DNA from: Methylococcaceae bacterium
GTDB lineage: Bacteria; Pseudomonadota; Gammaproteobacteria; Methylococcales; Methylomonadaceae
Direction: 5' to 3'
Assembly (NCBI GenBank): GCA_947505105.1
Contig: CANNKG010000005.1
Span: forward strand, 1 to 64,000
Length of the DNA: 64,000 bases
Shown: piece by piece, positions 57,693 to 59,873 of the stretch
Numbering within the stretch: the stretch's first letter is position 1
How the letters are laid out: each line of letters begins with the position of its first letter
Made by a program: the position numbers and the translations under genes
Notes under the pieces: generated by a model
Databases searched by the model: none
Told to the model about the DNA's origin: nothing
The model's input: only the letters and a program-made list of their open reading frames with translations

Positions 57693-59063
57693 TCATTGCT
57701 CCTTTTTAACGGGTTTCTGCCAACTTGAGATGGTCACTTGTTTGGCTCTTGCCAGGGTTAATTGATTGTCCGGCGCATCCTTGGTAATGGTTGAACCGGC
57801 ACCAATCGTGGCATTTTTCCCCACTTTAACCGGGGCCACTAATTGGGTATTTGACCCCACAAACACCCCATCTTCGATAACCGTTCTAAATTTATTGACA
57901 CCATCATAATTGCAGGTAATGGTACCCGCGCCAATATTAACTTTACTGCCCATGGTCGTATCGCCAATATAACTTAAATGATTGACCTTACTCCCGGTGG
58001 CAATAGTAGATTTTTTGATTTCGACAAAATTACCGATATGCACATGATCTGCAATTTCACTGCCGGGACGAATTCTTGCAAAAGGCCCAATTCGACACCC
58101 TTCACCAATTACAGCATCCTCAATGATGCTATTGGCTAGAATTTCAACATCATCACCAATAAACGCATTTTTTAGGACACAATTCGCTCCAATTTTAACG
58201 TTATTGCCAAGTCGAATCTGCCCCTCTAAAATAACGTTAACATCAATTTCAACATCGCGTCCAAGTTGTTCAACCCTCCCCCGCAAGTCGAAGCGTTTGG
58301 CATCGATCAAGGTCACACCCTGCTCCATCAAATAGCCCGCCTGTTCTAACTGATAAACTCGCTCTAAATGATATAACTGATTGCGATCATTGACCCCTAA
58401 TACCTCATCCTCATCTTCGGGTTGAGTCGTCATAATCGTTACCTTGTCGGCAACAGCCATCGCAATAATATCCGTTAAATAATACTCCCCCTGAGCATTA
58501 TGATTTGTGAGCGATTGCAGCCAATTTTTCAAGCGTTTGCCTGGGACCGCCATAATCCCGGTATTCACTTCTTGAATGAGTTTTTCAGCTTCTGTAGCAT
58601 CTTTTTCTTCGACAATTTTTTGGACGTTATTTTGAGCGCAACGCACAATGCGTCCATACCCTTTGGGACTGGAAAGATTAACCGTTAATAACGCTAAAGT
58701 ATTGCTATCGCTCAACGACAATAAACGCTGAACCGTCGCTAATTTTAGAAGCGGCACATCCGCATACAAAATCAACACCTGATCATCGTCTTGAATGAAG
58801 GGTAACGCTTGCTGGACCGCATGACCTGTGCCTAACTGCTGAGCTTGTTCAGTCCAGTTGACCGGCAAATCGGCAAAATGATTTTTCAACAATTCGCCAC
58901 CATGGCCGTACACTATGGTGATTGAATTATGTTCCAGTTGCTGACTCATATCATAAACATGCTTCAGTAAAGGTTTATGTGCAATCTCATGCATGACTTT
59001 TGGCTTTTCCGAACGCATTCGCGTGCCCTTACCGGCAGCTAAAATAATTGTCGAAATTTTCAT
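57693..59063 (-). CDS. glmU: Bifunctional GlmU (acetyltransferase / UDP-GlcNAc pyrophosphorylase)
   Basis: GlmU acetylates glucosamine-1-phosphate and then makes UDP-N-acetylglucosamine. The 456-residue protein starts with the nucleotidyltransferase signature LAAGKGTRMRSEKPKVMH, with QQLGTGHAVQQALPF and LYADVPLL following. From about residue 250 it is a left-handed beta-helix of hexapeptide repeats (IGNFVEIKKSTI, VNHLSYIGDTTMG, GAGTITCNYDG), ending with the acetyltransferase active site. It precedes glmS in one transcription unit, downstream of the atp operon as in E. coli. Confidence 0.97.
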   Translation of the reverse strand: MKISTIILAAGKGTRMRSEKPKVMHEIAHKPLLKHVYDMSQQLEHNSITIVYGHGGELLKNHFADLPVNWTEQAQQLGTGHAVQQALPFIQDDDQVLILYADVPLLKLATVQRLLSLSDSNTLALLTVNLSSPKGYGRIVRCAQNNVQKIVEEKDATEAEKLIQEVNTGIMAVPGKRLKNWLQSLTNHNAQGEYYLTDIIAMAVADKVTIMTTQPEDEDEVLGVNDRNQLYHLERVYQLEQAGYLMEQGVTLIDAKRFDLRGRVEQLGRDVEIDVNVILEGQIRLGNNVKIGANCVLKNAFIGDDVEILANSIIEDAVIGEGCRIGPFARIRPGSEIADHVHIGNFVEIKKSTIATGSKVNHLSYIGDTTMGSKVNIGAGTITCNYDGVNKFRTVIEDGVFVGSNTQLVAPVKVGKNATIGAGSTITKDAPDNQLTLARAKQVTISSWQKPVKKEQ

Positions 59064-59196
59064 GATTTAACCTTGATAAGTTTGAAAATATAAAGAAGAT
59101 TGTTGCTCGTTAGAGTATAGCTTAATGAGCAAAAGCTTTTGAGTAATGAGTATTTTTTTCAAAACCTTACTAAATTAATAAGCTCACATAAACGCT

Positions 59197-59329
59197 CAAC
59201 AATTCTCAATTTGAAGCCAAATAAAGGTGTCGGCAGCATGGATGCTGCCGTCGAGTCCCCATGGATGGGTTTACGGCGTTCTTCGACTAACCCTTCACGA
59301 CGCTAGGTTGTCCAAATTGAGAATTGCTG
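59197..59329. mobile_element. MITE-like element, 133 bp, with terminal inverted repeats and 9-bp target duplication
   Basis: The ends form inverted repeats of 17 bases with a single mismatch (left caacaattctcaatttg; right, read inward, cagcaattctcaatttg). The element is bracketed by a perfect 9-bp direct repeat, ataaacgct, at 59188-59196 and 59330-59338, as expected for a target-site duplication. Inside is a hairpin cggcagcat/atgctgccg (59231-59250). It has no ORF, so it must have been moved by a transposase encoded elsewhere. 9-bp duplications are made by several IS groups (for example IS1 and IS4-type). Confidence 0.82.
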
Positions 59330-59384
59330 ATAAACGCTAATTTAACCATAGCGACAGACTTGAAAAAAGGCGGCGACAAAAATA

Positions 59385-59419
59385 AAAAAGCCCGAGAACG
59401 TATCCGTCATCGGGCTTTT
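59385..59419 (-). terminator. Rho-independent terminator of the atp operon
   Basis: The arms aaaagcccga and tcgggctttt pair around a 14-base loop, 30 bases past the atpC stop, and on the minus strand are followed by a long T-rich run (ttttttattttt). Confidence 0.9.
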
Positions 59420-59450: not shown

Positions 59451-59873
59451 TCAGCCACCGCGTCTTCTATGTCTTTCCAGAGTTCGGAGCTGCATAATTG
59501 CATTAAGCAATTCTGCTTGAGCAGATGCATAATCCATTTTATTGGAGGTGTTGGCAAGAAACTCTTCAGCTCTTAATTTCGCTTCCAATGCTGCCGCTTC
59601 ATCAATGTCTTTCGCTCGGATTGCGGTATCGGCCAAAATCGTCACAGTATGTGGCTGAACTTCAATGATACCCCCGGATACGAAAAACGGGTAACTCTCA
59701 GTATCGTTGACCTTCACTCTCACTTCACCGGGTCGCAATTTAGAGATGAAAGGAGCATGCCGTGGAGCAATACCCACCTCTCCTAGTTCAGCGTGAGCAA
59801 AAACCATCTCGGCCAAACCGGAGAACAGTTGCGACTCAGCACTAACGATGTCTACATGGACTGTCATTGTCAT
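59451..59873 (-). CDS. atpC: ATP synthase epsilon subunit
   Basis: The epsilon subunit is part of the F1 central stalk and regulates ATP hydrolysis. The 140-residue protein has the N-terminal beta-sandwich (VHVDIVSAESQLFSG; LGEVGIAPRHAPF; VSGGIIEVQPHTVTILAD) and the C-terminal helical pair (AAALEAKLRAEEFLAN). It is the last gene of the operon, 18 bases after atpD. MTMT suggests two close ATGs; either could be used. Confidence 0.97.
   Translation of the reverse strand: MTMTVHVDIVSAESQLFSGLAEMVFAHAELGEVGIAPRHAPFISKLRPGEVRVKVNDTESYPFFVSGGIIEVQPHTVTILADTAIRAKDIDEAAALEAKLRAEEFLANTSNKMDYASAQAELLNAIMQLRTLERHRRRGG

Follow-up and report, generated by a model that had tools for sequence, protein, structure and literature searches.

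A terminal-inverted-repeat element with a YPAL-type two-hairpin core in the atpC-glmU gap of a Methylococcaceae bacterium

Results

The element between atpC and glmU

The window – the whole 64-kb stretch of DNA that was analysed, from the draft genome of a Methylococcaceae bacterium (5.1 Mb in 307 contigs) – contains two minus-strand genes, atpC with its stop at 59451 and glmU with its ATG at 59063, and in the gap between them a MITE with 17-base terminal inverted repeats (TIRs) and a 9-bp target duplication (Table 1). The two ends, CAACAATTCTCAATTTG and, inverted, CAGCAATTCTCAATTTG, differ by one mismatch when read directly, and the second of these is also the family consensus of the left end; the end sequence of the family is also written CAGCAATTCYCARTTTG. 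The arms reported by a repeat finder (59196-59213 and 59313-59330) are 94% complementary, and both copies of ATAAACGCT are exact and abut the element without a gap. The initial annotation, which had described a 133-bp element with 17-base ends, a single mismatch between them and exact flanking repeats, is thus confirmed by direct reading and by the repeat finder. The 17-mer end has no further occurrence in the window at three or fewer mismatches.

Table 1. Coordinates of the element, its parts and a neighbouring inverted repeat in the window
Feature	Position	Strand	Basis
MITE, derivative of a 156-bp element	59197..59329 (133 bp)	+	94% consensus identity over 133 positions; copies elsewhere
Target duplication ATAAACGCT, left copy	59188..59196	+	direct reading; same letters as 59330-59338
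Left terminal inverted repeat CAACAATTCTCAATTTG	59197..59213	+	direct reading, repeat finder, own-genome ends
Two-hairpin core of YPAL/TwoAYGGAY type	59220..59287	+	model R1, 70.9 bits, E 2.4e-18
Junction of 23-bp internal deletion, GTCGG	59229..59233	+	full-length copies read GTCGG-GAAGGGTTAAGCGAAGAT-GTCGG
Hairpin 1, CGGCAGC-AUGGAU-GCUGCCG	59231..59250	+	direct reading and core model
Hairpin 2, GUC-CCC-AUGGAU-GGG-UUUAC-GGC	59255..59277	+	direct reading and core model
Right terminal inverted repeat CAGCAATTCTCAATTTG (minus-strand reading)	59313..59329	-	direct reading, repeat finder, own-genome ends
Target duplication ATAAACGCT, right copy	59330..59338	+	direct reading
Inverted repeat 3' of atpC, likely atp terminator, outside the element	59386..59419	-	15-nt arms, 87% complementary; minus-strand T run at end

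The window copy differs from the family consensus by about 6% (94% identity) and lacks 23 bp that lie between two GTCGG repeats in the full-length copies of the genome, which are about 156 bp long; the left arm of the outer stem is absent from it because of this deletion. Given this divergence and loss, the earlier proposal that the element had moved recently is not supported, although its ends and target duplication are well preserved.

The inverted repeat downstream of atpC is likely to be the atp terminator, judging by its arms and T run, and the earlier placement of the element between this terminator and glmU agrees with the coordinates of the genes and of the repeat. A weaker side claim of the same annotation is that the element could contain the glmU-glmS promoter or interfere with it. 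A promoter scan of the gap found nothing above shuffled sequence, a weak negative since the same scan missed the evident atp terminator. The strand of the element that carries the GGA loops is antisense to both atpC and glmU, and the window copy probably has little effect at its site.

The corresponding gaps of three congeners (122, 286 and 377 bp) all lack the element, and a core-model search of 26 further glmU loci from methanotrophs and relatives, together with the gaps of four relatives, returned the window copy as its sole match. The closest glmU outside the genome itself, from an uncultured Methylococcales, has about 72% identity, a match that puts the host with the gammaproteobacterial methane oxidisers. 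Among the relatives' gaps compared, all of them too diverged, there is no exact empty site with a single copy of the target.

Copies in the same genome and in relatives

The genome that contains the window has 43 pieces matching the element, and the 17-base end occurs in it 128 times at three or fewer mismatches, as against 21 times for a reversed control pattern. Both ends are present in 23 copies, 16 of which are flanked by a 9-bp duplication matching at 7 or more of 9 positions, each of a different sequence; random pairs reach 7/9 over 9 bp at a rate of 0.0014 (0.14%). The genome carries about 20-40 copies of the element. It also has forms of 47-61 bp that have no interior and are likewise flanked by 9-bp duplications.

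Of 150 other genomes searched from the family, 16 carry relatives of the element; none of the three same-genus genomes searched has a copy. The closed genome G010 has 309 ends (161 + 148), as against none for the control, and holds about 150 copies; in the 1.2 Mb of it that was read, about a quarter, there are 42 paired elements, 28 of them with duplications matching at 8-9 of 9 positions. In G010 (L195-L254) the elements come in sizes of 165, 214, 263 and 312, a series that reflects the insertion of two-hairpin units of about 49 bp in the loop of hairpin 1, and GGA loops recur in the inserted unit when it is read on the opposite strand. A further MITE copy of 326 bp (L005, G000 C172:7021-7346) has additional inverted repeats, different in kind (CGTTCGTGCTGAG...-like), nested within the outer stem.

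The element is therefore a MITE by its conserved 17-bp inverted ends, its 9-bp duplication, its tens of dispersed copies and the lack of any copy found in this gap in relatives: it is short with TIRs, makes a target duplication of constant size and is present in multiple dispersed copies. The initial annotation had recognized a transposed MITE from the window, and this is borne out by the many copies in the same genome, with duplications of their own, and by relatives in other genera; it had also named as contrary evidence the same sequence at this locus in distant relatives with no copies elsewhere, whereas other copies are present and the gaps of the relatives sampled gave no match to the element. 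The alternative that two repeats, one inverted and one direct, arose by chance in an AT-rich intergenic gap is favoured by nothing beyond that base composition and can be dismissed, as dozens of copies share the same ends and have their own duplications.

A conserved two-hairpin core

The interior of the element contains two hairpins with AUGGAU loops, enclosed by an outer helix that is merely partly paired in the window copy because its left arm has been lost. Among 13 core sequences from about 10 genomes, 97% of the cells are paired, a comparison that favours this structure over slid versions of it because it was drawn with those sequences in view, and 13 of the 20 pairs are changed on both sides. 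The double-sided changes are the stronger evidence for the fold. The covariation score for these 13 sequences is 0.377, compared with 0.07-0.13 for slid controls, and in a set of eight that includes the published RU-2/YPAL sequence 94% of the cells are paired and 15 of the 20 pairs are changed on both sides, with a score of 0.607. Compared across sequences, then, the core is a conserved fold of two hairpins, with AUGGAU in the loops and strongly compensatory changes among its pairs.

The core is of YPAL type, a classification that follows from its joint fold and covariation with the published RU-2 sequence. It shares with YPAL the two hairpins, the ANGGA loops and a conserved spacer, and aligns with RU-2 (PMC2759123); YPAL is likewise multi-copy and mostly intergenic, and has been reported to be mobile (PMC2229807). 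However, YPAL has been described as having no terminal inverted repeats and duplications of 3-26 bp (PMC2229807), whereas the window element has 17-bp inverted ends and a 9-bp duplication, with outer sequence that is unrelated as far as compared, and it thus packages the shared core differently.

Two Rfam families resemble the core. RF01731 (TwoAYGGAY) also has two hairpins with AYGGAY loops within an outer stem, but the element scores 22.8 bits against a gathering score of 43, its second hairpin and outer stem fitting poorly; the consensus of RF02770 (Ysr224, Yersinia sRNA 224) corresponds to this core read on its other strand, where the element reaches 21.4 bits, the gathering score being 70. 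With both scores below the gathering thresholds, the element is a formal member of neither family. Among bacterial MITEs, RUP, Correia/NEMIS and ERIC (PMC2229807) are similarly small and non-coding; they too carry TIRs, duplicate their targets, occur in many copies and give foldable transcripts. The ends here, however, start with CAGCAATTC rather than TA, and the duplication made is of 9 bp. We could not match the MITE family of the window element to any named family.

Cores outside the MITE

A related core is present in 50 of 274 genomes sampled from the Gammaproteobacteria, with the MITE itself in two of these 50 (the genome of the window and G010), and the core model has 85 match sites in G166, from another family of the same order. 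The MITE ends are absent from the solo copies of the core inspected outside the family.

The core model matched well over 100 times in about 1.06 Mb of a G010 sample (L195-L247), far above the number of TIR-bounded elements there, so that most core copies in G010 lie outside the MITE. Solo cores were examined for arms at loci from other Gammaproteobacteria and one relative (L257, L262, L266, L269, L273, L277, L281, L286, L288-L300, L302, L268), and in 22 of 23 the pairing continues well past the 7-bp outer helix in complementary arms, of median length 20 bp, that differ in sequence from locus to locus. The complementarity of a core's own arms has a mean score of 16.0, compared with 1.2 when arms are swapped between loci.

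At the same intergenic site as L257, the sister species G443 (L400) is missing the solo core and both arms (n=1). Insertion of solo cores into a pre-existing hairpin was considered and rejected on this comparison: because neither arm is present in the sister species, the arms at this one locus are unlike the halves of an older hairpin that has been split.

Discussion

Mobilisation of the element

We propose that the element as a whole is a non-autonomous transposon (MITE) that was moved in trans and carries a core of YPAL/TwoAYGGAY type as a passenger, an explanation to which we assign a probability of about 0.87. A cut-and-paste (DDE) transposase supplied in trans would recognize the ends and make a 9-bp staggered cut, and repair of that cut would generate the target duplication. 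The core would be a passenger that was either captured or placed between the ends, and movement would not require it in cis, as is suggested by the coreless 47-61 bp forms, which 9-bp duplications flank as well; alternatively, these short copies could have been shortened in place by deletion at GCCA repeats.

The initial annotation had called for an insertion sequence sharing the 17-base ends, and neither such an element nor a transposase with these ends was found in the places searched: by end pairs in the same genome, whose draft assembly may have lost insertion sequences through collapse; by end pairs in the 1.2 Mb of G010 (about a quarter); or at the best 30 DDE_Tnp_1 loci read in six genomes, DDE_Tnp_1 being the sole family tried. 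The methanotroph MITE differs here from RUP, for which a partner insertion sequence has been proposed. Sites of CAGCAATTCTCATTATG at C41, C296 and C302 were considered as insertion-sequence ends and rejected, each being single and beside open reading frames that by appearance are unlike transposases.

The core might instead be mobile in its own right by a YPAL-like route, having inserted here midway into a TIR element that was short and palindromic, and travelling since then both ways. We regard this as possible, if rather doubtful. Solo cores in many genomes are in its favour, as are the near-palindromic form of the 47-bp elements, the presence of GCCA on both flanks of the core, the further hairpin units nested in a core loop in G010 and the report that YPAL targets sites of dyad symmetry (PMC2229807). 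However, what the genera have in common is the long form, whose flanks inside the ends are homologous, so that the 47-bp forms look derived, and neither arm was there in the sister species at the single solo locus that allowed such a comparison.

The core as a possible RNA

That the core is a selected functional RNA, with paired ANGGA loops that bind CsrA, transcribed copies that act as mobile CsrA decoys or alter the stability of the mRNAs containing them, and ends that merely aid its spread, seems to us unlikely. Two or more ANGGA motifs are present in 30 of 33 non-redundant cores; the model that selected these copies was itself built on the motif, however, and this favours conserved positions. 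The strong covariation of the core, the presence of csrA in the genome of the window and the CsrA binding predicted for TwoAYGGAY (PMC4333381) are further points for a functional RNA, but the UUYAC bulge and a junction A are conserved equally to the loops and are left unexplained by CsrA, the copies in G010 show no clear preference for one orientation with respect to genes (from crude ORF calls), and the antisense orientation of the GGA strand in the window also speaks against it. The GGA loops may bind CsrA.

A MITE with TIRs is a known kind of element; what is new, relative to the open-access literature searched, is the YPAL-type core inside it and the link between YPAL, TwoAYGGAY, Ysr224 and the MITE, which is absent from the papers found there, other literature being outside that scope. 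One conserved folded core joins the Yersinia repeat YPAL/RU-2, RF01731, RF02770 and a MITE family of methane oxidisers, and this suggests that some listed regulatory RNA families may be mobile repeats. A more speculative extension, which we consider improbable, is that the core is a widespread gammaproteobacterial hairpin module with two ways of spreading, on its own with locus-specific arms and inside TIR elements, and that where a genome has hundreds of copies it could act as a mobile RNA decoy that titrates CsrA; YPAL, TwoAYGGAY and Ysr224 would then form one superfamily. The copies offer testable material on the spread of a structured module and on its possible effect on CsrA.

The Ysr224 consensus is the opposite strand of the YPAL/RU-2 core (RF02770, PMC2759123), and on this comparison the listed sRNA family Ysr224 appears to be a YPAL repeat.
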